Positions 15,852-32,440 of a stretch of DNA of 64,000 bases are shown in pieces. The stretch comes from Comamonadaceae bacterium. Its GTDB lineage: Bacteria; Pseudomonadota; Gammaproteobacteria; Burkholderiales; Burkholderiaceae_C. The stretch covers positions 1-64,000 of the forward strand of contig CANFPJ010000006.1 of assembly GCA_947448885.1 (NCBI GenBank), read 5' to 3'. Position 1 is the stretch's first letter. Each line of letters begins with the position of its first letter. The position numbers and the translations under genes were made by a program. The notes beneath the pieces were generated by a model, which made no database searches, had not been told where the DNA came from, and worked only from the letters and a program-made list of their open reading frames with translations.

Positions 15852-16826
15852 TCAATCCAGACGCGCGCCCGACTGTTGGACGGTTTGCGCCCAGCGCGGC
15901 ATTTCTTCGGCCAAAAAACGGGCGAAATCGGCGGCCCCCAAAAACGCCGGGTCAGCGCCTTGGTCGGTCATGCGGTTGCGCACCTCAGGCTGAGAGAGCA
16001 CGGTTTTGAAGGCATCGCTGAGCACCTGCACCGCTTCTTTGGGCGTGCCCGCTGGGGCCAAAAACCCGTAAAACCCCACCACTTCAAACGATTGGATGCC
16101 ACTTTGCATGACCGTGGGCACATCGGGCAAGGCCGGGCTGCGTTCGCGGCTGGTCACCGCCAACACCCGGACCTTGCCCTGCTTGTGATAAGCCGCGGCC
16201 TGGGGCACGCTCTCGGCCATGAATTGCACCTGGTTGGCCATCAAATCGGTGAACGCCGGTGCGCTGCCCCGGTACGGGATGTGCACCATGAACAAACCGG
16301 TGGCGGACTTGAACATCTCGGGCACCAAATGGCTGATGCCGCCATTGCCCGCCGAGCCGTAGTTGATTTGACCTGGGCGGGCGCGGGCATAGGTCACCAA
16401 TTCGCTCAGGTTGCGCACCGGCAAACTGGGGTTGACCAGCAAGGCCAAGGGTTGCATGGCCGTTCTGGCCACGGGCACAAAATCGCGCAAGGTGGCATAG
16501 GGCAAGCGGCTGTACAAAGCCGGGTTGATGACCATCACCCCGGTATTGGCCAGCATCAAGGTGTGGCCATCGGGCGCAGCCTTCATCACCTCTTGCGCGC
16601 CCACCGTGCCACCCGCGCCCGACTTGTAATCGATCAGCACCGGCTGGCCCAGCACCGCTTGCAGCCGATCGGCCAACAAGCGCGCATGCAAGTCCAACGG
16701 CCCGCCCGCCGGAAAACCAATCACGATGCGCACCGGCTTGGTCGGAAAAGCCCAAGCCGGTGGGGCGGCGCAGCACAGCCATGCGGCACACAGCCCGCCG
16801 AAAAATCCCCAAATTTTGCGATCCAT
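15852..16826 (-). CDS. Bug/TctC family periplasmic substrate-binding protein
   Basis: Protein of 324 residues from ATG 16826 (MDRKIWGFF), giving a signal peptide that ends at AWAF. The Bug pattern is KPVRIVIGFPAGGPLDLHARLLADRL, where the FPAGGPLD loop contacts the carboxylate ligand, followed by the AAPDGHTLMLAN segment. It follows the neighbouring bug gene by 44 bases on the same strand. No tctA or tctB permease genes are near. The ligand is unknown. Confidence 0.9.
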   Translation of the reverse strand: MDRKIWGFFGGLCAAWLCCAAPPAWAFPTKPVRIVIGFPAGGPLDLHARLLADRLQAVLGQPVLIDYKSGAGGTVGAQEVMKAAPDGHTLMLANTGVMVINPALYSRLPYATLRDFVPVARTAMQPLALLVNPSLPVRNLSELVTYARARPGQINYGSAGNGGISHLVPEMFKSATGLFMVHIPYRGSAPAFTDLMANQVQFMAESVPQAAAYHKQGKVRVLAVTSRERSPALPDVPTVMQSGIQSFEVVGFYGFLAPAGTPKEAVQVLSDAFKTVLSQPEVRNRMTDQGADPAFLGAADFARFLAEEMPRWAQTVQQSGARLD

Positions 16827-16870
16827 CTGGCACCTTTCCATCCGTGAGCCCGCGGCCCTAACACCCAGCT

Positions 16871-17851
16871 TCAGCTGTCTGCCTGCACCTTGGCGTCTTT
16901 GACCACGCGGGCCCATTTTTCTTGCTCAGTGGCGATGAACTGGCTGAATTTTTCAGGGGTTCCGCCACCGTCCTCGGCGCCGTATTGCTCGAATTTTTCT
17001 TGCACATCGGGCATGGCCATGACACGGTTCATGTCCTCGTTCATGCGCTTGACCATGGCCGGGTTCATGCGCGCCGGGCCCACCAGGCCGTACCACGTGG
17101 TGGCATCAAAACCGGCAAACCCTTGCTCGTCCATGGTCGGCACGCCCGGGTGGCCTTTGGCGCGTTTGGTTCGGGTTTGGGCCAGGGCCAAGACCTTGCC
17201 GCCTTTGACATGCGGCGTGGCCGAGGTCATGGTTTCAAAGCAATATTGCACCTGACCACCGATCAAATCGGTCAAAGCCGGGCCCGATCCTTTGTACGGC
17301 ACATGCAAAGCCTGGATGCCCGCACGCAGCTTGAACATCTCCAACGCCAAATGCTGGGCCGAGCCGCCACCGGCCGAGGCAAAGCTGATCTTGCCGGGGT
17401 TTTGTTTGCACAAATCGACCAACTCTTTGACCGTCTTGGCCGGTTGCTGGGTGTTGCAAATGAGCAAATTCGGCGTCACCCCCACCAACACCAAGGGGGT
17501 GAAATCACGCTCGACCACATACCCGAGTTTGGGCTGCAGGCTGGGGGCAATGGCATGGCTGTTGATGTGCGCCATCAGCAAGGTGGTGCCGTCGTTGTTT
17601 TGTTTGGCCACATGGTCAGCGGCAATCACGCCAGCCGCCCCGGCTTTGTTCTCAATGACCACGCTGACATTCCACATGGCCTGCAATTTGACGGCCATCA
17701 CCCGCGCCAAGGCGTCGGTACCGCCGCCAGGGGGAAAGCCGACCACGATGCGCACATTGCTCGTGGGCAGCGATTGGGCCAGCAAGGCGGGGTGGGCCAA
17801 GCTGGCACACAGGGCAGCCGAGCCGGTTTTGATCAGGGTTCTGCGTAGCAT
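16871..17851 (-). CDS. Bug/TctC family periplasmic substrate-binding protein
   Basis: Protein of 326 residues from ATG 17851 (MLRRTLIKTGSAALCASLAH), whose N-terminus looks like a Tat or Sec signal ending at LLAQS. SD-like AAGGATG lies 6 bases upstream. The loop VVGFPPGGGTDALARVMA and LMAHINSHAI segment are standard. A longer frame from 17956 lacks a signal peptide at its start, so it was not chosen. First of two tandem bug genes, divergent from the TPS secretion genes. Confidence 0.9.
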   Translation of the reverse strand: MLRRTLIKTGSAALCASLAHPALLAQSLPTSNVRIVVGFPPGGGTDALARVMAVKLQAMWNVSVVIENKAGAAGVIAADHVAKQNNDGTTLLMAHINSHAIAPSLQPKLGYVVERDFTPLVLVGVTPNLLICNTQQPAKTVKELVDLCKQNPGKISFASAGGGSAQHLALEMFKLRAGIQALHVPYKGSGPALTDLIGGQVQYCFETMTSATPHVKGGKVLALAQTRTKRAKGHPGVPTMDEQGFAGFDATTWYGLVGPARMNPAMVKRMNEDMNRVMAMPDVQEKFEQYGAEDGGGTPEKFSQFIATEQEKWARVVKDAKVQADS

Positions 17852-18123
17852 GATGTCATCCTTTGTTGACAGGGTGCCCCCACATGGTGCTTCAAGGGGG
17901 TCGCCCAGGGGATTGGCTTGCCCACAGACCATTATGGCGAAATTTGTGAAAACCAAGACAAATCAGTCACTTGGGGCCCCGATGCCGACCGATACCCCGT
18001 CAACCCCAAAAAGTGCATTTCGCCCTTTATTTTTGCCAACTCGCGCCGATCAATGAAGGCCATCGTCCTGCACATGGCCTTTGCCGTGGGTGGCAGGGGC
18101 AGCGCAAGCCGGTGGCAGCCCCC
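17852..18123. other. Divergent intergenic region between bug and tpsB
   Basis: The 272 bases hold the ribosome site of the minus-strand bug gene and an isolated TTGACA (17866-17871, plus strand) with no matching -10 box. I find no convincing promoter, repeat or RNA in it. The promoter for the tpsB-tpsA pair must lie here or be non-standard. Confidence 0.4.
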
Positions 18124-20031
18124 ATGAACTTGCGCCCTTCACAGCCCTCACCATCCCCCCGCCGGCAGTTGATCGCCGGGGTGGGCGCGTCCCTGCGACA
18201 CGCCATAGGCCTGGGCTGGTTGGTTGGGACCTTTGCCTGCCTGGCCCAAACCCCTGCGCCTCCCCCGGCAGCACCGAGCCGCTTCGACCAATGGGTGCAA
18301 TACCCCCCCAAACCGGTCAACCCCGCCATGCCTGGCACGCTGGACAGCAGCGACAAAAAAATCAATTGGGTGCGCTTTGCAGCACCCACACCACCGGCCG
18401 AGCCCACACCCGACTTGGCGCCAGCCGCCGCGGGCACCCCAACCGCCACAGGGTCGCCGCCAGCCCCCACCCCGGCCGCCGCTGCTGCGCCCAAGCCCAC
18501 CGAGTCCCAGGCGTCCGTGGTCAAGGGGTTCGAGTTCAAGGGCATCAGCGTCTTCAGCGCCAGCGAATTGACCTGGGTCTTGAAAGCGGTGCTGGGCACC
18601 CCAGTGGACATGAAAAGCCTGGAAAACATCGTGGCCTTGCTGGACGCGCATTACGCCGACAACGGTCGCTTGGGTCGGGCTGAAATCCCCCCCCAAGACA
18701 TGACCGACGGGCTGATCCAGGTGACGGTGCGCGAAGGCCGCTTTGCCCGCGCTGTGATCGAACCCGCGCCGCACCCGCGCACCCCCCCGGCCTTGGCGGT
18801 GGATTTGGTCGAAACCGCACAACCCAAAGGACAAGTGGTCAACCTGCAAGCCCTGGACCGCGCCACCTTGTTGCTGTCGGAGTTGCCGGGTGTGCAAGCG
18901 CAAATGAGCCTGCGCCCCGGGGAAAAAGAGGGCGAAACCGAGGCGGTGATTCGGCTCGACGATGCGCCCGCCACCGATGGCAGCGTGGTGTTCGACAACG
19001 CGGTGGTCAGCGCCACCGGTGCCACGCGCACCATTGGCCAACTGAACCAACATGGCGGTTTTGGTCGGGCCGAAACCGTCAGTTTGATTTGGATGCACAC
19101 CGAGGGCAGCGAATACTTGAAGGTGGGCTACAGCGAACCGTGGGGCAGTTCGGGCAAGCGCGTGGGCTTTAACCTGTCGGGCAGCAAATACCAATTGATC
19201 GCCCCCCAATACACAGCGCTCAACCCCAGTGGGCCGGCCAACTCGCTGGGCCTGGACTTGAGCGTGCCTTGGCTGCGCTCGCGCTCGGCCAATGCCAACC
19301 TGGTGTGGGGCTATGAACACAAAAACTTCCGCAACGACACCATGGCCGGCTTGGTGTCGGAATACAAAATCGATGTGTTCAGCGCCACCGCGCAAGGCCA
19401 GCGCAGCGATGGCTGGATGGGTGGGGGCGAATTCGCAGCCTCCTTGCAAACCTTGATCGGCCATGTGGATTTGAACGGCTCCCCCAACCAAGGCATGGAC
19501 GCCTTGACCACCCAAACCGCAGGCCTGTATGCCAAATTGCGGGCCATGGCCTCGCGGGTGCAGCGCATCAACCCCCAACAATCGGTGGTGGCCACCTGGC
19601 AAGCGCAGTTGGCCAGCAAAAACCTGGACGGTTCTGAAAAGTTCTTCATGGGCGGCTCGCAAGGCGTGCGTGCCTACCCCACCAACGAAGGCGGCGGCAG
19701 CCAAGGCCAGTCGCTGAACCTGGAGTGGCAACACCTGCTCAACGCGGGCAACCAACGCCTGACCTTCGCCGCTTTTTATGACATCGCCACCATCGATGTG
19801 AACAAGTTCAACGACTTCATTGGGGGCGCCAGCCTCAACACCTACGCCTTGCAAGGGGGTGGTTTGTGGCTGGGCGGGCCTTTGGCGCACGGCTGGGGCA
19901 CCCCCCTGCAATGGCGCTTGACCTGGTCGCGTCGGGTGGGCGTCAACCCGATGGCTTCATCCAGCGGCCTGGACCAAGACGGCTCCTACCGCTGGGATCG
20001 GTTATGGTTCAACTTCAACCAGCCTTTTTGA
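18124..20031 (+). CDS. TpsB outer-membrane transporter (ShlB/FhaC/HecB family)
   Basis: Protein of 635 residues from ATG 18124 (MNLRPSQ). An N-terminal signal region (GLGWLVGTFACLAQT) is followed by a long Pro/Ala/Thr-rich linker to about residue 130. A POTRA domain then starts at VVKGFEFKGISVFSASEL (residues about 131-207), and a beta-barrel domain runs to the end. The conserved FMGGSQGVRAYPTNEGGG segment is present and the last residue is Phe, as in most outer-membrane barrels. TpsB recognises the TPS domain of its TpsA partner in the periplasm and threads it outwards. The partner gene follows after 12 bases. Confidence 0.92.
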   Translation: MNLRPSQPSPSPRRQLIAGVGASLRHAIGLGWLVGTFACLAQTPAPPPAAPSRFDQWVQYPPKPVNPAMPGTLDSSDKKINWVRFAAPTPPAEPTPDLAPAAAGTPTATGSPPAPTPAAAAAPKPTESQASVVKGFEFKGISVFSASELTWVLKAVLGTPVDMKSLENIVALLDAHYADNGRLGRAEIPPQDMTDGLIQVTVREGRFARAVIEPAPHPRTPPALAVDLVETAQPKGQVVNLQALDRATLLLSELPGVQAQMSLRPGEKEGETEAVIRLDDAPATDGSVVFDNAVVSATGATRTIGQLNQHGGFGRAETVSLIWMHTEGSEYLKVGYSEPWGSSGKRVGFNLSGSKYQLIAPQYTALNPSGPANSLGLDLSVPWLRSRSANANLVWGYEHKNFRNDTMAGLVSEYKIDVFSATAQGQRSDGWMGGGEFAASLQTLIGHVDLNGSPNQGMDALTTQTAGLYAKLRAMASRVQRINPQQSVVATWQAQLASKNLDGSEKFFMGGSQGVRAYPTNEGGGSQGQSLNLEWQHLLNAGNQRLTFAAFYDIATIDVNKFNDFIGGASLNTYALQGGGLWLGGPLAHGWGTPLQWRLTWSRRVGVNPMASSSGLDQDGSYRWDRLWFNFNQPF

Positions 20032-20043
20032 CCACCACTGCAC

Positions 20044-23000
20044 ATGATCAAAAAAGCCCACCCACTGAAACCCGAACACGGCGTCGCGCACCAGCGATGG
20101 GCGCAAGCCTGGGCTTGGGCCATGCTGGGCTTGACCACGGGCGGCACGCCAACTTGGTCGCAGACCCCACCGGCGATCTCGGCCACCCAACTGCCCCAAG
20201 GCGGCAAGGTGGTGGCGGGCACGGCCACCATCGGCCAAAGCGGCAACAGCCTCAACATCAACCAGTCCAGCAACCGTGCGGTGTTGAACTGGAACAGCTT
20301 CAACGTGGGCGCCCAAGCCCAGGTCAATTTTGTGCAGCCCTCGGCCAACTCGGTCACCCTCAACCGCGTGCTCGACACCCAGGCCAGCCAAATCTTGGGC
20401 CGCATCAACGCCAACGGCCAGGTGTTTTTGTCCAACCCCAACGGGGTCTTGTTTGGCCCCAGCGCCCAGGTGGATGTGGGCGGCCTCTTGGTCACCACCC
20501 ATGGCATTGGCAACGACGACTTCATGGCCGGCAAATCCAGCTTTGAGGGCACGGGCAAAGCCGGCAGCGTGGTCAACCAAGGCCAATTGCAAGCCAGCCT
20601 GGGCGGCTACATCGCCTTGCTGGCGCCCCAGGTGCGCAATGAGGGCGTGATCGTGGCCAAAGAGGGCACGGTGGCGCTGGCTGCGGGCGACAAAGTCACT
20701 TTGCAATTTGCTGGACAAAGCCTCACCGCGGTGCAAGTGGACCGCACCGTGGTCGATGCCTTGGTGGACAACCAACATCTGGTGCGCGCCGAAGGCGGCT
20801 ATGTGGTGATGACCGCGCGCAGCGCCAACGCTTTGCTGCAAAACGTGGTCAAAAACACCGGCAGCGTGCAAGCGCCCAGCTTGGTCAACCGCCAAGGGCG
20901 CATCGTCCTCGAAGGGGGCAGCCTGGGCCGGGTGGAGGTGGCCGGCAGCCTGAGCGCCACCGGCGACCAAGGCCTGAGCGGCGGCTCGGTGTGGGTGATG
21001 GGCGACCAGGTGCTATTGAGCCCCGGCGCGGCCATCGACACCTCGGGCGACACCGGCGGCGGCCAGGTGCTGATTGGCGGGGGTTGGTCGGCAGCGGTGG
21101 GGCCGGTGGGCAAGTCCAGCAGCGTGCACGTGGTCGACGGGGTCAGCATCAAGGCCGCCGCCACGGGCACGGGCAATGGGGGATATGTCGAGACCTCGGC
21201 CAAAAAAGTTCAACTCGCTGCCAGCGCCAGGGTGGACACCTCGGCCCGCCACGGCACGCCGGGGCAGTGGGTGATTGACCCGGTGGACATCACCATTGAC
21301 GACGCCATGGCGGTGACCATCTCCAACGCCTTGAACAGCGGCAACGTCACCGTCAGCACCGACGGCGGCAACACCCCCGACACCAGCGCCGGCGAAAGTT
21401 CGGGCACCGGCGATATCAACGTGGACGGTGCCATCTCCTGGTCGGCCAACTTGCTCACCTTGAAAGCGGCCGACAAGCTCTACATCAACAACGTCTTGCG
21501 CGGCACGGGATCGGCCAGCTTGCGCTTTCACATGACCGCCGCCAACGGGCTCGACAACGTCTATTACAAGGCACCGGTGTATTTGCCCGCAGGGGACACG
21601 CTGTCAGCCCTGGAGGGCGCCAGCCTGACCCCCATCAACATCAAGGTCATCACCAGCCTGGGGTCAGCGACGAGCACCACGGGCAGCGATTTGCAAGGCA
21701 TCGGCGCCAACTTGACCGGTTGGTTTGCGCTGGGCAGCGATATCGACGCCAGCGCCAGCAGCACCTGGAATGCAGGCGCTGGCTTTGCCCCCTTGGGCAA
21801 CAACGCCACCCCCTTTGACGGCGTGCTGTTGGGTCAAGGCCATGTCATCAGCAACCTGACCATCAACCGGCCAGGCAGCGACTATGTGGGCTTGCTGGGC
21901 AAATCCATTGGCCATGTGTCCGAACTCGGTTTGGTGGATGCCAACATCACCGGGCGCAATCACGTGGGCAGCTTGGTCGGCATGAATACCGGCACCGCTT
22001 GGCTCAACTTTGCCACCGGACAAGTCAGCGGTGCGACCAGTGTGGGCGGCTTGGTGGGCACCTTGGGCGATGGCGGCAAGGTGCGCAACAGCTATGCCAA
22101 GGCCAACGTATCGGTGACCAATTTCGCCGATGCCGGGGGCCTGATTGGCTTGGTCAATGTGGGCACGGTTTACAACAGCTATGCCACGGGGCAGGTGTCG
22201 GTGGTCGGTGCAGGCTCTGCCACGGGCGTGGGCGGTTTGATTGGTCGCTTGGGCACGGGCGCGCTGGCGCCCGTGGATGTGAGCAATGCAGGCTTTTGGG
22301 ACACCACCCTGTCGGGCCAATCCACCTCGGCCGCTGGCGTGGGCTTGGCCACCACTGCCACGAAGCGTTACAACAGCGGACTGGACCAATTCAACCTCAA
22401 CACCAGCGACTACTGGCTCAATTACTACAACAAAACCACGCCCCTGCTGCAAGCCTTTTTGACGCCGGTGACCATCATGGCCGGCGACGACAGCAAAACC
22501 TATGACGGCCAGGCCTACAACAGCAACACCTGGTACAGCACATCGGTGACCACCAATGGGTATTTGCTGGGCAATGGCAGCATGGTTTTTGGCGGCAGCG
22601 CCATGGGCGCGGTGAATGCCGGCACCTACACCATCGTGCCCAGTGGTTTGTACAGCGACGACAACCGGGGTTTTGCCATCAGCTATGCCAATGGCACGCT
22701 GACGGTGGACAAGGCCAATGTGAGCCTGACCGGCAACCGTGCCTACAACGGCAGCACCGCCATGGCCGGCGCCAACTTGACGGCCAACGGCGTCAACGGC
22801 GAGACCTTCAGCGTGACCGGTGCGGGGGCCGATGGCAATTTGTCCACCCGACATGTGCAAGCGGCCAATTTGTTGGCCAGTGTCAGTGGTTTGGCTTTGG
22901 GCACTTCCAGCAATGGGGGCCTGAGCAGCAACTACAACGCTTTGAGCACCGCCAATTCGGCGGTGACCATCACCGCCAAGCCGGTGACCCTGACCGCCCC

Positions 23001-26000
23001 AGTCATCAGCAAAGCATATGACGGCAATGCCAACTACACGCCATCAGACAGCAACTTGAGCACGTTGGGCAGCCAATTGGGCGTGGTGGGCGACACCGTG
23101 AGCGCAGCCACCATGGCCTTTGACAACAAAAGTGCGGCTTACGGCACCAAAGTCGTGACCCTCAGCGCGGCCACCGTCAGCGACGGCAATGGCGGCCAAA
23201 ACTACAGCCTGACCTATGCGGGCAACAGCACCAGCACCATCACCCCCAAGGCACTGACCATCATCGGCATCACCGCCGCCGACAAGGTCTACGATGGTTT
23301 GACCACCGCCAGCGTCAGCACCGCCGGGGTGACCCCCAGCGTGTTGCAGGCCAATGGCTTGGTGGCGGGCGACACCGTCACCGTGTCTTCCACGGGCAAC
23401 TTCCGCAATGTGGCCAACACCGCCAACGACAAAAACGCCGCCACCAACAAAACCGTTTTGTTGTCCAACACCTATGGTGGCGCGGATGTGGGCAACTACG
23501 CCATCACCGGTCAGACCACCACCACCGCCAACATCACCCCCCTGGCCCTGTCGGTGACGGGTTTGAGCGCCAGCGACAAGTCCTACGACGGCAGCACCAC
23601 CGCCACCCTCACCGGCACGGCCAGCATCAGCCCCCTGGGTGGCGACACCGTGAACTTGCAAGCCGGCCAAGCCCAATTTGCCAGCGCCGCCGAAGGCGCC
23701 AACCAAGTGGTCACCGCCAGCGGTTATCGGCTCACCGGCACTGACGCCAACAACTACCAATTGACCCAACCCACCAGTTTGCGTGCCAGCATCACACCGC
23801 TGGACCTGACACCTTTGCGCCTGACCTTGACGCCACAGGTGATGGCGACTTTGAATGGCGCTCAAGTGGCCAGCTTGAGCCCGGACCAAGTGAGCTACCT
23901 CAGCACGGACCAATTTGGCGCGTTTTCGGCCAGCCAACTGGCCAACCTCAGCCCCGCCGCCTGGAGCCGCGTCTCCACCGCCAGCGTGGCCCAGTTGACC
24001 CCCACACAAATCGCCAGTTTGCGCGCCGACGCCTGGGCCAATTGGTTGGCCAGCCAAGTGCGTGTGCTCAGGCCCGACCAACTCCAAGCGCTGACACCCA
24101 CCCAACTGGCGGGATGGGGCAGCACCCAGTTGCAGGCCATCGACAACACCCAATGGGCGGCCCTGAGCTTGCTGCAACGGCAAAGCCTGACGGCGGCACA
24201 AATCAGCGCGTTCACCCCCAACCAGGTGGCGGCTTCGTCCAGCAGCACGCTGAGTGAACTGACCACCGCCCAAATCGCCGGTTTGGTCACCGCCCAGATC
24301 ACCCGCTTAAGCCCTGAGCAAATCAACGCCTTCACCGCCAGCCAGTGGCAAAGTTGGAGCCGCAGCCAGATTGCGGCCTTGACCCCCACACAAATCGCTG
24401 CGCTCACCCCCAGCCGCTTTGCGCAATGGTCGACGGTTCAACTCGCTGGGTTGAATGCGGCGCAAGTGGCCTCGATCAGCCTGGACCAAATCAACGCGTT
24501 GAGCACCACACAGCTGCGCCAACTCGCTGCCAGCGGGCAATTGCAGCAAATCGTGGCGACCGATGTGGCCCGGGTGGTGGGCAGTGCCACTGCCGCATCG
24601 GCCATCCAGGCGGTGAACTTGAACGCCGCCGTGATCAGCGCCACCACGGTGGTGCAAACCAGCGAAAGCAACACCGCCAACGAATCAACCTCAACGGCGG
24701 CGGTCAAGTCCCGCACCGTTGGCATCGGCGCCACCCTGGCGCCTGGCTCAGCCCCGGACGTGCAAGCCCTGATGTTGGTGACCAGCGGGCGCCAAATCAG
24801 CCAACTGAGCATCCTGGAGGCTCAGGCACTGCTGCCCCCTCAACTCAAGCTGATGAACGGCGCGCAACTTGATGCCCTGGTGCAAACCCACGGCCGCAGT
24901 TTGCTGCCTGGCCAATGGGCCAGCTTGAGCGCTCAACAACTGGCCAGCCTGTCACCGCGCGTTTGGGCCTCGCTGGATCGTGATGTGCTGCAAAACTTGA
25001 CGGCGCCACAACTCAGCGCATTGACGCTCGAGCAGGTGACGGCCATGCGGCCCGCGCAGTTGGCGTGGTTGACACCTTCGCAATGGCCGCTGTTCAACCG
25101 CATCCCCTTGTCCGCGCTGAGCGTGGACCAGTTCAAAGCCTTGATCAGCAACAAATTGGCGGCGCTGCCCCCTGAGTACATGCCAAGCTTGACCCAGGCG
25201 CAATGGCTCAGCCTGTCGCGCAATCAAATCCAAAGCCTGACGCTGCAGCAAATCCAGTTGCTGACCCCGGCGCAATTGGCCGCCTTGCCGCCGCCCCTGT
25301 GGTCCGTTTGGTCGGTGCCGCAAGTGCACATGCTGGCCCCGCCCAGCCTGGCCCGCATCGGCGTGAGCCAGCTCAACATCGTGATCAAACATCTTTTGCC
25401 GCACCAAATTCAAGCCTTGGACCCTGTCACCTTGGTGCAACTGGAACCCCGCCAATGGGCCAACTTGACGCCCTTGCAATGGTCCGCCATCACGCCCAAC
25501 CACATCGCGGCTTTCAGCCCGGCACTGCTCAATGCCTTGACACCGGCCCAACTCCAGTGGCTCAGCCCCAGTGCTTTGTCCTTGCTCAGCGGCCCGCAAT
25601 TGGCGGCCTTGAGCCCGGCCTTGATCGCCAGTTTCACCCCCTTGCACTGGCAAAACTTCAGCCCAGCGCAATGGCAAGCCTTGCAAAGCAATCAGTTGGC
25701 GTCGCTCAGCTTGACCCAGTTGGAAAGCCTGGGCCCACGGGTTTTGCTGGCCTTGACACCCACGCAATTGGCGGGCCTGAACTTGGCCCAAAGGCAAGTG
25801 GTGCTCGCAGCCAGCGGTACCTGGCCGGTGCTGGCCATGAGCTCGGCCCAAATCAGCGCGATGAGCACCGAGCAAATCCAGGCCATGGGCGTGGCATCCA
25901 TGGGCTTGCTCACGCCCGCACAAGCGGCCGCCTTGCAAGCGCGCCAACTGCAAGCCTTGAGCTTGGCGCAGTGGCAAGCCATGGCCCCCGCCCAATTGGC

Positions 26001-27066
26001 GGCTTTGCAACCCGAGCTCATGAACGCCCTGCCCGCCACGGTGTTGCGCGCTTGGGGCTTGGGCCAAGTGGCCGCCCTCAGCCCCCAGCAAGTGCAGGCC
26101 ATGTCGGTGACCACCTTGGGGGCCTTCACCCCGGCCCACTGGCAAGCGCTCTCGCCCAATGCCTTGGCGGCGTTGACGGCGCCGCAATGGCGTGCCGTCC
26201 CCATCGAACAAATGGGCGCATTGACCACCCTGCAATTGGCGGGTCTGCCGCTGCCGTGGTTGGGTCAGTTGCAGCCCGCACAAATCCAAGCCCTGAATTT
26301 GGTGCAAATGGGCGCGCTCACACCGGCCCAACTGTCGGCACTGACGCCCGCGCAAATGCAGTGGCTCACACCGGCCCAGCTGAGTGTGATCACCCCCCAG
26401 GCGATGACCCAGTTCACCCCGGTGCAAATGAGCGCACTGTCACCCGTGCAAGTGGCCTCGTTCAGCCCAGCCCAGGTCAATCTGTTGACACCGCTGCAAA
26501 TGCGCGCCTTGGCCGGCCCGCAGTTGCAAGCCATGCAACCCGCACAAATCGTGGCCCTGCAATCGCAGCAACTCAACGCCTTGACCCCCGCACAAATTCA
26601 GCTGCTCACCCCCTTGCAATTGCAGGCCTTGTCACCCGCACAAGTGGTGGCGCTGAACCCCACACAATTGCAAGCCTTGTCACCCGCACAGTGGAATGCC
26701 CTGCGGGCTGAGAACATGGCGGCATTGAACACGGCGCAACTTCAAGCCCTGAGCCCACCACAGATCGCGGCTTTCAACCCCACCCAAATCACCGTTTTGG
26801 AGCCGGCCCAAATCAGCACCTTGCTGCCCCCACAGGTGGCGGCTTTGGGCACCGCGCAAATTTGGAGCCTGAGCAACGCCCAGCTGCAGGCCCTCACACC
26901 CAGCCAAATTGGCGCCATCCGATCGGTGCCTTTGGGCACCCTGCTGCCGCTGTTGCGCGCCGAGCAAATCCAAGGGCTGAGCAAGGCGCAACTGGCCAGC
27001 ATCAACCCCAATCAGTTGCGCCAACTGACCAACGCCCAAACCCAGGCCGTGCTGGCCGTGCGCTAG
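20044..27066 (+). CDS. TpsA exoprotein: FHA-type TPS domain, GLUG and MBG/YDG repeats, long octad-repeat tail
   Basis: Protein of 2340 residues secreted by the adjacent TpsB. Residues 1-45 form an extended signal region, then the haemagglutination-activity/TPS domain (about 45-270) with NPNGVLFGPSAQVDVGGL near residue 130. Further beta-helix sequence follows. GLUG-type motifs (VGGLVGTLG, AGGLIGLVN, VGGLIGRLG) lie near 660-740. About five MBG/YDG-like modules (KTYDGQ, RAYNGS, KAYDGN, KVYDGL, KSYDGS) occupy about 805-1258. From residue 1260 to the end are about 122 eight-residue repeats of pattern x-A-L-[ST]-P-x-Q-hydrophobic, split by a Ser/Thr-rich linker at about 1500-1585. No C-terminal anchor or toxin domain is present. 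Probably a large surface adhesin or matrix protein. The octad array has no function I can name. Confidence 0.88.
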   Translation: MIKKAHPLKPEHGVAHQRWAQAWAWAMLGLTTGGTPTWSQTPPAISATQLPQGGKVVAGTATIGQSGNSLNINQSSNRAVLNWNSFNVGAQAQVNFVQPSANSVTLNRVLDTQASQILGRINANGQVFLSNPNGVLFGPSAQVDVGGLLVTTHGIGNDDFMAGKSSFEGTGKAGSVVNQGQLQASLGGYIALLAPQVRNEGVIVAKEGTVALAAGDKVTLQFAGQSLTAVQVDRTVVDALVDNQHLVRAEGGYVVMTARSANALLQNVVKNTGSVQAPSLVNRQGRIVLEGGSLGRVEVAGSLSATGDQGLSGGSVWVMGDQVLLSPGAAIDTSGDTGGGQVLIGGGWSAAVGPVGKSSSVHVVDGVSIKAAATGTGNGGYVETSAKKVQLAASARVDTSARHGTPGQWVIDPVDITIDDAMAVTISNALNSGNVTVSTDGGNTPDTSAGESSGTGDINVDGAISWSANLLTLKAADKLYINNVLRGTGSASLRFHMTAANGLDNVYYKAPVYLPAGDTLSALEGASLTPINIKVITSLGSATSTTGSDLQGIGANLTGWFALGSDIDASASSTWNAGAGFAPLGNNATPFDGVLLGQGHVISNLTINRPGSDYVGLLGKSIGHVSELGLVDANITGRNHVGSLVGMNTGTAWLNFATGQVSGATSVGGLVGTLGDGGKVRNSYAKANVSVTNFADAGGLIGLVNVGTVYNSYATGQVSVVGAGSATGVGGLIGRLGTGALAPVDVSNAGFWDTTLSGQSTSAAGVGLATTATKRYNSGLDQFNLNTSDYWLNYYNKTTPLLQAFLTPVTIMAGDDSKTYDGQAYNSNTWYSTSVTTNGYLLGNGSMVFGGSAMGAVNAGTYTIVPSGLYSDDNRGFAISYANGTLTVDKANVSLTGNRAYNGSTAMAGANLTANGVNGETFSVTGAGADGNLSTRHVQAANLLASVSGLALGTSSNGGLSSNYNALSTANSAVTITAKPVTLTAPVISKAYDGNANYTPSDSNLSTLGSQLGVVGDTVSAATMAFDNKSAAYGTKVVTLSAATVSDGNGGQNYSLTYAGNSTSTITPKALTIIGITAADKVYDGLTTASVSTAGVTPSVLQANGLVAGDTVTVSSTGNFRNVANTANDKNAATNKTVLLSNTYGGADVGNYAITGQTTTTANITPLALSVTGLSASDKSYDGSTTATLTGTASISPLGGDTVNLQAGQAQFASAAEGANQVVTASGYRLTGTDANNYQLTQPTSLRASITPLDLTPLRLTLTPQVMATLNGAQVASLSPDQVSYLSTDQFGAFSASQLANLSPAAWSRVSTASVAQLTPTQIASLRADAWANWLASQVRVLRPDQLQALTPTQLAGWGSTQLQAIDNTQWAALSLLQRQSLTAAQISAFTPNQVAASSSSTLSELTTAQIAGLVTAQITRLSPEQINAFTASQWQSWSRSQIAALTPTQIAALTPSRFAQWSTVQLAGLNAAQVASISLDQINALSTTQLRQLAASGQLQQIVATDVARVVGSATAASAIQAVNLNAAVISATTVVQTSESNTANESTSTAAVKSRTVGIGATLAPGSAPDVQALMLVTSGRQISQLSILEAQALLPPQLKLMNGAQLDALVQTHGRSLLPGQWASLSAQQLASLSPRVWASLDRDVLQNLTAPQLSALTLEQVTAMRPAQLAWLTPSQWPLFNRIPLSALSVDQFKALISNKLAALPPEYMPSLTQAQWLSLSRNQIQSLTLQQIQLLTPAQLAALPPPLWSVWSVPQVHMLAPPSLARIGVSQLNIVIKHLLPHQIQALDPVTLVQLEPRQWANLTPLQWSAITPNHIAAFSPALLNALTPAQLQWLSPSALSLLSGPQLAALSPALIASFTPLHWQNFSPAQWQALQSNQLASLSLTQLESLGPRVLLALTPTQLAGLNLAQRQVVLAASGTWPVLAMSSAQISAMSTEQIQAMGVASMGLLTPAQAAALQARQLQALSLAQWQAMAPAQLAALQPELMNALPATVLRAWGLGQVAALSPQQVQAMSVTTLGAFTPAHWQALSPNALAALTAPQWRAVPIEQMGALTTLQLAGLPLPWLGQLQPAQIQALNLVQMGALTPAQLSALTPAQMQWLTPAQLSVITPQAMTQFTPVQMSALSPVQVASFSPAQVNLLTPLQMRALAGPQLQAMQPAQIVALQSQQLNALTPAQIQLLTPLQLQALSPAQVVALNPTQLQALSPAQWNALRAENMAALNTAQLQALSPPQIAAFNPTQITVLEPAQISTLLPPQVAALGTAQIWSLSNAQLQALTPSQIGAIRSVPLGTLLPLLRAEQIQGLSKAQLASINPNQLRQLTNAQTQAVLAVR
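23821..24540 (+). repeat. Octad repeat block 1 of TpsA (30 units of 24 bp)
   Basis: Thirty consecutive 24-base units encode eight-residue repeats in unbroken phase from LTLTPQVM to RQLAASGQ (residues 1260-1499). Typical units are ASLSPDQV, QALTPTQL and AALTPTQI. Position 3 is Leu or another hydrophobic residue, position 4 Ser/Thr, position 7 Gln, position 8 aliphatic or aromatic. Nucleotide identity between units is low, so the array is old or held by selection. Confidence 0.88.
24799..27063 (+). repeat. Octad repeat block 2 of TpsA (about 92 units)
   Basis: Residues 1586-2339 continue the octad pattern from SQLSILEA to the C-terminus. Three units are 12 residues long (NIVIKHLLPHQI, TWPVLAMSSAQI, GTLLPLLRAEQI), i.e. 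octad plus four. The distal third (from about 26300) is the most regular, with units such as SALTPAQM, QWLTPAQL and QALSPAQV, and some neighbouring units are near-identical in DNA, suggesting more recent duplication there. Confidence 0.88.
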
Positions 27067-31456: not shown

Positions 31457-32440
31457 ATGAAGTACCTGCAACGCCTGTCCCAATTGTTGACCTTGGCCGC
31501 CCTCAGCCTGTGCAGCGCTGCATGGGCGCAAGCCAATTACCCCGACCGCACCATCAGCCTGGTCGTGCCCTTTGCCGCGGGTGGGCCCACCGATGTGGTG
31601 GCGCGCATGCTGGCCATCCCCATGGGCAAGTCCCTGGGGCAAACCGTGGTGGTGGAGAACACCTTGGGGGCAGGTGGCACCCTGGCCTCGCAGCGGGTGG
31701 CGCGCTCCGCGCCCAACGGCTACACGGTGTTGATCCACCACACCGGCATGGCCACGGCACCGGCCTTGTACAAGCGCCTGGGCTTTGACCCGCTGAAAGA
31801 CTTTGACTACATCGGCCAAGTGGTCGATGTGCCCATGACCTTGCTGGGGCGCAAAGATTTCCCGGCCAATAACTTTCAAGAGTTGCTGGCTTACATCCGC
31901 GCCAACAAAGACAAGGTCTCGCTGGCCAACGCCGGTCTGGGTGCGGTGTCGCACCTGTGCGGTCTCATGTTCATGAGCCAAGTGGGTGTCGACCTGACCA
32001 CGGTGCCCTACAAAGGCACGGGACCGGCGATGAACGATTTGCTCGGCGGCCAAGTGGATTTGCTGTGCGACCAAACCACCCAAACGGTGCCCATCATCAA
32101 AGAAAACCGCGTCAAAGCCTATGGTGTGACCACCCTCACCCGCCTGTCCAGTTTGGGCCAGTTGGCCACCTTGGACGAGCAAGGCCTCAAAGGCTTTGAA
32201 GTCAAGGTGTGGCACGGCATGTATGTGGCCAAGGGCACGCCGGCGCCCATCATCGAGAAAATCAACACCGCCTTGCGCTTTGCATTGCAAGACCCCCAGG
32301 TGCGCCAACGCCTGGCCGATTTGAGCTCGGACGTGCCCGCCGCCGACAAGCTGACACCGCGTGGCTTGCAAACCCATTTGGAAGCCGAGATCAAAAAATG
32401 GACCCCGGTCATCCAAAAAGCGGGTATTTACGCCGATTGA
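31457..32440 (+). CDS. Bug/TctC family periplasmic substrate-binding protein
   Basis: Protein of 327 residues with a clear signal peptide ending at SAAWAQ. The ligand loop is VPFAAGGPTDVVARMLA and the second conserved part is SAPNGYTVLIHHTGMA. It lies 31 bases upstream of a cyclase-family gene on the same strand, so its ligand may be that enzyme's substrate. A likely promoter precedes it at 31373-31401. Confidence 0.92.
   Translation: MKYLQRLSQLLTLAALSLCSAAWAQANYPDRTISLVVPFAAGGPTDVVARMLAIPMGKSLGQTVVVENTLGAGGTLASQRVARSAPNGYTVLIHHTGMATAPALYKRLGFDPLKDFDYIGQVVDVPMTLLGRKDFPANNFQELLAYIRANKDKVSLANAGLGAVSHLCGLMFMSQVGVDLTTVPYKGTGPAMNDLLGGQVDLLCDQTTQTVPIIKENRVKAYGVTTLTRLSSLGQLATLDEQGLKGFEVKVWHGMYVAKGTPAPIIEKINTALRFALQDPQVRQRLADLSSDVPAADKLTPRGLQTHLEAEIKKWTPVIQKAGIYAD

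Follow-up and report, generated by a model that had tools for sequence, protein, structure and literature searches.

A two-partner secretion protein with an ALTTAQ-type octad array: a predicted alpha-solenoid with a C-terminal block of near-fixed length

In two-partner secretion (TPS), a TpsA protein with an N-terminal TPS domain is exported through a TpsB transporter, and its N-terminal part generally leaves the cell first. Some TPS proteins keep their C-terminus inside. In FhaB and CdiA the C-terminal part stays in the periplasm, and the FhaB prodomain and the HMW1 C-terminus have a role in retention or anchoring.

Tandem repeats of eight residues (octads) are catalogued in Pfam as PF20080, the ALTTAQ repeat (ALTTAQ_rpt). 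In other proteins, octads are found near enzymes that resemble FlmG, a TPR+GT41 protein. FlmG belongs to the flagellin glycosyltransferase system of Caulobacter (eLife 2020, PMC7591256). Superhelical repeats of the ARM type have been predicted for mesothelin, stereocilin and otoancorin (PMC2628672). The names ALTTAQ and HeliScrew were not found in the literature searched, where mentions of PF20080 were unrelated judging by title. Among the matches listed, titles were unrelated for LTTAQ, LTTDQ and LSTAQ, none dealt with this octad repeat in searches on octapeptides and solenoids, and none was relevant to two-partner secretion combined with octads or an alpha-solenoid. Searches for GT41 together with giant proteins or type I export likewise gave no relevant title, and one on octads, superhelices and mesothelin yielded useful work on mesothelin only.

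The window analysed here is a stretch of 64,000 nucleotides from a Comamonadaceae bacterium. It contains a gene for a TpsB outer-membrane transporter (open reading frame at 17971..20031, + strand), matched by Pfam POTRA_2 (1.6e-9) and ShlB (1.3e-9), both above their cut-offs. The TpsB protein probably starts at 18124. After a spacing of 12 bp follows the open reading frame of TpsA (20044..27066, +), which encodes 2340 aa. This protein consists of a TPS secretion domain with an NPNG motif (aa 50-301, 20191..20946, +; PF05860 2.9e-39, NCBIfam TIGR01901 4.7e-23), a GLUG motif (aa 663-690, 22030..22113, +; PF07581, 21.0 bits against a cut-off of 20.5), a YDG domain in four stretches, the best of which is aa 1165-1244 (23536..23775, +; PF18657 4.3e-31), and a long array of octads.

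The N-terminal TPS domain and the TpsB gene adjoining upstream place the protein in the TpsA class, as a reading of the sequence alone had claimed, and Pfam bears out the three modules named there. FHA-type TpsA exoproteins have the TPS domain, NPNG motif, adjoining TpsB, and YDG and GLUG modules in common with the window protein. Unlike them, the latter has a C-terminal 46% that is predicted to be an alpha-solenoid instead of a beta-helix. TpsB relatives lie directly upstream of an octad-bearing TpsA in all six genomes searched (own genome included), although in one of the six TpsB is reduced to a piece by a contig end. Two genes for TctC receptors of tripartite tricarboxylate transporters flank the pair in the window, at 15852-16916 and 31457-32440.

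The octad region is periodic. Position 23821 corresponds to aa 1260, and aa 1260-2340 amount to 1081 aa, or 46.2% of TpsA. Here the residue identity at a lag of eight is 0.271, compared with a mean of 0.102 and a maximum of 0.130 when the same residues are shuffled 1000 times, and lags of 16, 24 and 32 give 0.25-0.26. For the N-terminal 1259 aa the lag-8 identity is 0.084. The protein was also parsed with an octad scoring matrix (PSSM) trained on TpsA itself. A strict parse finds 115 units in aa 1260-2340, where 50 shuffles give a mean of 36.6 and a maximum of 48, and 20 units in the N-terminal 1259 aa.

Two blocks and a linker can be distinguished. The N-block (aa 1262-1493, 23827..24522, +) is defined by lag identity, PSSM parse and AlphaFold2, and has 29-30 octads; a loose parse scores 28 of these positions, in runs of 17 and 11 octads separated by a single degenerate unit. 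It is followed by a linker of about 80 aa (aa ~1498-1579, 24535..24780, +), visible in the PSSM parse and in AlphaFold2. The C-block (aa 1580 to ~2336, 24781..27051, +) is supported by PSSM parse, orthologue alignment and AlphaFold2. It has about 94 octad positions, 86 of them scored in the loose parse of aa 1580-2335, at a threshold that also picks up about 10 stray units, located in the linker and ahead of the array. The C-terminal end of the block (aa 2292-2340, 26917..27063, +) contains an L-L-P-L-L-like interruption of the octad pattern, conserved in an alignment of six orthologues.

The whole region comes to about 123 octad positions. The lag-8 identity and the parse confirm the array reported over the C-terminal 46% of TpsA, and the two blocks and linker correspond to those noted before, with 30 and 92 units. 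The composition had also been described correctly: the region has no Cys, is nearly uncharged (Asp+Glu 2.6%, Lys+Arg 3.5%) and is rich in A, L, Q, S, P and T. Long antisense open reading frames over the octads (for instance 24952-26427, - strand) are taken as by-products of codon bias.

TpsA matches PF20080 in 17 stretches with 253.4 bits, against a cut-off of 26.4 (6.3e-77). The score above the curated cut-off and the long in-phase array are features of the PF20080 type, and by its profile score the octad region is a member of this catalogued family. The octad is common to both. The T-T at positions 2-3, which is typical of the family by name and not required by the model, is not the usual form in the window octads. 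These favour S/T-P-x-Q instead, with Pro at position 3 in 37% of the counted N-block units and 58% of the counted C-block units, compared with 0-3% in four free-standing octad proteins of the genus. This Pro-3 form is a variant of PF20080, and membership is not excluded by it.

The best sequence match in the PDB is 9zem ('HeliScrew4', 120 aa), with a phmmer value of 1.1e-14. A profile of six orthologues aligns with it over 110 residues without gaps and in octad register (E 9.9e-28). Compared by sequence only, 9zem is short and more charged (E, D, K) than the window repeat. The sequence-only reading could name no described domain for the repeat, and held that a hit to a known, structurally solved family would count against it. 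The PF20080 match and the solved relative 9zem are such a hit, and the idea that the repeat is undescribed has to be given up.

Other matches are of less value. Mesothelin sequences in the PDB match weakly (E about 0.003), and matches to LRR proteins and variable lymphocyte receptors were judged by eye to be compositional. A Pfam match to CAAP1, an apoptosis-inhibitor family (26557-26685, aa 2172-2214; 27.9 bits against a cut-off of 25), lies on ordinary octads and is probably an artefact. It recurs in all five orthologues scanned, and such a composition match could mislead the annotation of octad proteins. Of 12 records listed for plasmid-borne relatives, one is annotated as 'heme utilization protein' and the others carry no function name.

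AlphaFold2 models cover aa 1240-1680 and aa 2076-2340 of TpsA. The second, made with 14 relatives, has a mean pLDDT of 93.6 and a pTM of 0.83, and contains 32 helices of at least 4 residues in 265 aa, about one per octad. The first has a mean pLDDT of 80.7, a pTM of 0.58 and 30 helices at 8-residue steps. Past the N-block its helices become longer and confidence falls, with pLDDT below 50 at aa 1532-1583, after which octads appear again. AlphaFold2 can over-rate its confidence on tandem repeats. A beta-helix running to the C-terminus is not seen; the models have short helices in aa 1256-1490 and 2076-2340. The S/T-P-x-Q start of the unit fits a helix N-cap with a capping box, and the residues for such a box (S/T/N/D at position 2 with Q/E at 5) are present in 67% of 27 N-block units and 55% of 83 C-block units. 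The octad region is predicted to be an ALTTAQ-type alpha-solenoid, a spiral of tiny helices.

Sequences of low complexity that are rich in Q, A, S and T and nearly free of charge may also be plainly disordered, or form amyloid-like beta fibres. For the octads this is extremely improbable, since the C-terminal model is all helix at high pLDDT, a relative has been solved, and conservation extends to single residues with few indels. Disorder had been named in advance as the outcome that would speak against a regular domain; short helices are predicted throughout aa 2076-2340 instead, and the regular domain stands.

The top 8 matches in a Foldseek search are mesothelin chains (E 4.4e-6 to 7e-4), at 13-16% identity to the window protein. 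The best of them has a probability of 1.00 at E 4.4e-6, yet its TM is only 0.41, the highest among the eight. Mesothelins are not known to have a strict octad. 9zem is not among the best 50 of 523 Foldseek matches, and its relation to the octads is a sequence match only. Against viral models, matches are weak, with TM at most 0.32 among the best 50.

Mesothelin binds MUC16, and by analogy the superhelix could be a ligand-binding surface instead of a passive spacer. Besides the fold matches and the weak sequence matches, the unit-by-unit preservation of C-block residues would suit such a surface; the low TM does not, and a ligand-binding role is considered distinctly unlikely.

The octad repeat is old at the DNA level. 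Adjacent octads average 44% and 50% DNA identity in the two uninterrupted stretches measured, and 72-nt stretches within the region match one another at 78% at most. Of 41 relatives, 16 have matches to PF20080; these are among the 25 from the window's genus, and the 16 genomes from other families of the order have none. Among 14 named control genomes, Caulobacter vibrioides has matches.

A profile of the C-block scores at least 323 bits in 14 of 84 genomes of the genus, the next best score being 247. In a family-wide sample octads occur in 106 of 399 genomes and 50 of 141 genera, and an orthologue-like score is reached only by the window's genome (952 bits; next 240). This is a weak negative, because scoring was limited to two candidates per genome and the other 13 orthologue genomes were not among the matches listed. 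Among the matches listed for the 399 genomes, TPS and octads lie close together, by eye, only on the window's own contig.

Both parts are found by Pfam in one frame in the window and at loci L030, L031, L172 and L176. In genomes G022 (L032) and G006 (L033), the TPS match and the C-block match share a contig and fall in open frames of equal length. In G023 (L035) the gene is split by a run of N, and its N-terminal part matches at 69%. At L163, L170, L171, L173, L174 and L175 the 5' side is lost to contig ends.

An alignment of six orthologues, with the count starting at window aa 1620, gives the C-block a length of 694-726 residues, or 87-91 octads. L031 and L033 are 43.4% identical over 726 residues without an indel, and across the 15 pairs most gaps measure 8 or 32 residues, others 7, 6 or 1. 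Ahead of the linker, L030 has a far longer octad block than L031 or L032. For the C-block dN/dS is 0.099 (L031/L032) and 0.157 (L030/L033), values that are rough because synonymous sites are near saturation (pS 0.63-0.74), and that come from two pairs only, the pair of window and L035 not being computable. The TPS domains of the same two pairs give 0.111 and 0.142. By these rough values the C-block is under purifying selection, with conservation unit by unit. Given its near-fixed length, few indels and low dN/dS, it resembles an ancient module with a selected length more than a freely expanding repeat.

Several features vary among the orthologues. A C-x-x-C-N-Q-[LF]-K stretch, with a further Cys about 30 residues on, is present in the C-blocks of L030, L031, L032 and L033 (four of the six aligned) and missing from the window protein and L035. 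Pro-rich tails follow the octads in L030 (G008), L033 (G006), L163, L170, L171 and L172; the window protein has none. Type I TolC, ABC and HlyD genes converge on the 3' end of the TPS-octad gene at L030, L170, L171 and L173, and HlyD alone does so at L163, on a short contig.

Because some TPS proteins keep their C-terminus in the periplasm, the C-block could also stay inside. It would then be a retention or anchor domain, a folded alpha-solenoid that stops export from within the periplasm or the TpsB pore. The C-terminal place of the block, its near-fixed length, the low-confidence linker that sets it apart from the rest of TpsA, the Pro-rich tails and the C-x-x-C stretches are all consistent with this. 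Yet the window octad region has no Cys, the window protein has no such tail, and Pfam finds no C-terminal domain of the FhaB or HMW1 type in TpsA. Retention is a serious possibility, though an unlikely one.

The preferred reading, with a probability of roughly 0.6, is an ALTTAQ-type alpha-solenoid on TpsA in which the fixed-length C-block is the stalk or base of a surface adhesin and the N-block is adjustable. In each octad, position 2 (S/T/N) would cap a helix of about 4-7 residues and Q at position 5 would close the capping box, while Leu-1, the hydrophobic residue at 6 and Ala-8 would pack into the next octad. The chain would wind as a screw of very short predicted helices. During export, the TPS domain would be engaged by the TpsB of the neighbouring gene. 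The beta-rich TPS/GLUG/YDG part would exit the cell first, and the octad blocks would emerge last and fold locally. The C-block, with its selected length of about 94 units, would provide a defined stalk or base, and the N-block, before the disordered linker, would be the part that can be adjusted. Export of a long regular octad domain through TpsB is plausible; the role of the C-block of this TPS adhesin as stalk or anchor is one we only infer. What is unusual here is that the known ALTTAQ repeat is joined to two-partner export, with a C-block whose length is nearly fixed in relatives.

Octads also occur in free-standing proteins. A scan of genome contigs with a 120-aa octad stretch from the window's own genome gave 572 pattern matches and 262 relatives, and the best 80 were kept, representing 73 loci (L064-L136). 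These span Roseateles, Duganella, Aquabacterium, Rhodoferax, Limnohabitans, Pseudomonas, Hyphomicrobiales, Acidobacteria and others, a sample that is biased because the query was of the T-T form. Free-standing octad frames reach 5718 aa, and many are cut by sequence ends. An expression for the TPS motif matched the listed octad frames at none of the 73 loci. A scan of genome contigs with P0001 gave 92 stretches, none of them confirmed. Octad-like stretches were also seen in the Vibrio phages OK483201.1 and PV501192.1 (33-34% identity, E 2e-20 and 1e-8; 2 of 50,697 phage records), and phrog_15773 has octad-like stretches in phages.

Some free-standing giants have a glycosyltransferase gene nearby. 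Nine neighbour proteins picked by eye were all TPR proteins with Glyco_transf_41 (GT41, PF13844), and the GT41 profile was built from them; six of the nine belong to the 73 loci. A GT41 gene lies near the octads at 22 of the 73 loci, in 19 cases within 1.1 kb. Where the sequence extends more than 2.5 kb downstream (26 loci), 17 have the gene within 1.1 kb; these are raw counts without a matched background set. Within the genus, 5 of 15 free-standing loci have one, three of the five being profile seeds. Examples of such giants are L029, L038, L039, L040, L078, L082, L112, L118 and L130; the one at L078 belongs to Undibacterium terreum, and Limnohabitans sp. T6-20 (L134) also has an octad gene with GT41 nearby. 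In the window's own genome, the sole GT41 gene over the cut-off adjoins a free-standing octad gene (L029, G000:C36).

Other neighbours include a type I ABC or HlyD relative at 8 of the 73 loci and a flagellin gene at 11, six of these among the 22 with GT41. On a Pseudomonas asturiensis plasmid, an octad gene is followed by two hypothetical genes and a TPR gene, and then by opposite-strand genes for TolC, HlyD and a type I ABC protein. The GT41 enzymes may act on the octads or on the nearby flagellins. The likeness to FlmG lies in the TPR+GT41 proteins near free-standing giants, at some loci together with a flagellin gene; the 64-kb window differs in having no GT41 match.

Glycosylation is proposed here for the free-standing relatives, and the window octads might likewise be O-glycosylated by GT41 to give a glycan-coated fibre. 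The neighbourhoods of the giants, including that in the same genome, point in this direction. However, the GT41 profile finds nothing at 14 TPS-octad loci (window included; several of these sequences are short), and GT41 is common (29 of 41 relatives) and also present in genomes without octads, which occur in 16 of the 41. Position 3 of the window C-block, mostly Pro, is Ser/Thr in only 10% of counted units, compared with 80-97% in the four free-standing genus proteins. A glycan-coated fibre in the window is thus very unlikely.

Free-standing octads have a longer periodicity as well. The sample comprises 178 free-standing runs with 22,599 octads. Acidic octads, defined by E at position 2 and D/E/N at position 5, return in it after 7, 10 and 17 units. 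Their spectrum peaks at 3.40 octads, where it reaches 17.8 times the median, a ratio that never exceeds 1.55 in 30 shuffles. The Asp found at position 4 also peaks at 3.40 octads (55 times the median, without a shuffle control). Among 60 loci with at least 80 units each, many from related species and with 13 shorter ones dropped, the best period is 3.3-3.5 in 51 for Asp-4 and in 40 for the acidic marker. Three of the four genus proteins lie at 3.39-3.41 (own genome 3.41), and L040 at 2.89. A duplication unit of 17 octads may contribute, and the Asp-4 peaks at lags 3, 7, 10 and 14 fall inside such a unit. In its simplest reading, the super-period of 3.40 octads (27 residues) points to a superhelix that completes 5 turns in 17 octads.

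No super-period is found in the window octads (114 units in runs, nine features other than Asp-4 and the acidic marker, p 0.066-0.91), and six features pooled over the TPS-octad orthologues have no 3.4 peak. For this reason, the superhelix of free-standing members is not carried over to the window octads. The window form differs from free-standing PF20080 members in this respect, and in its fusion to a TPS domain.

A more general picture is speculative and rather doubtful. Octads would be one bacterial material, a helical screw of about 3.4 octads (27 residues) per turn, that is exported by two routes. Free-standing giants would have a Thr-rich face sugared by GT41 and use type I or related export. 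In this Burkholderiales genus, a Pro-stabilised and unglycosylated form would pass through TpsB, with its fixed C-block as a ruler or adhesin base.

The free-standing forms provide a sequence-derived super-period of 3.4 octads that can be compared with 9zem, and a candidate glycosyltransferase partner. The C-block is an evolutionarily fixed block suited to expression and structure solution. The TPS form, in turn, ties the ALTTAQ repeat to a defined export route.
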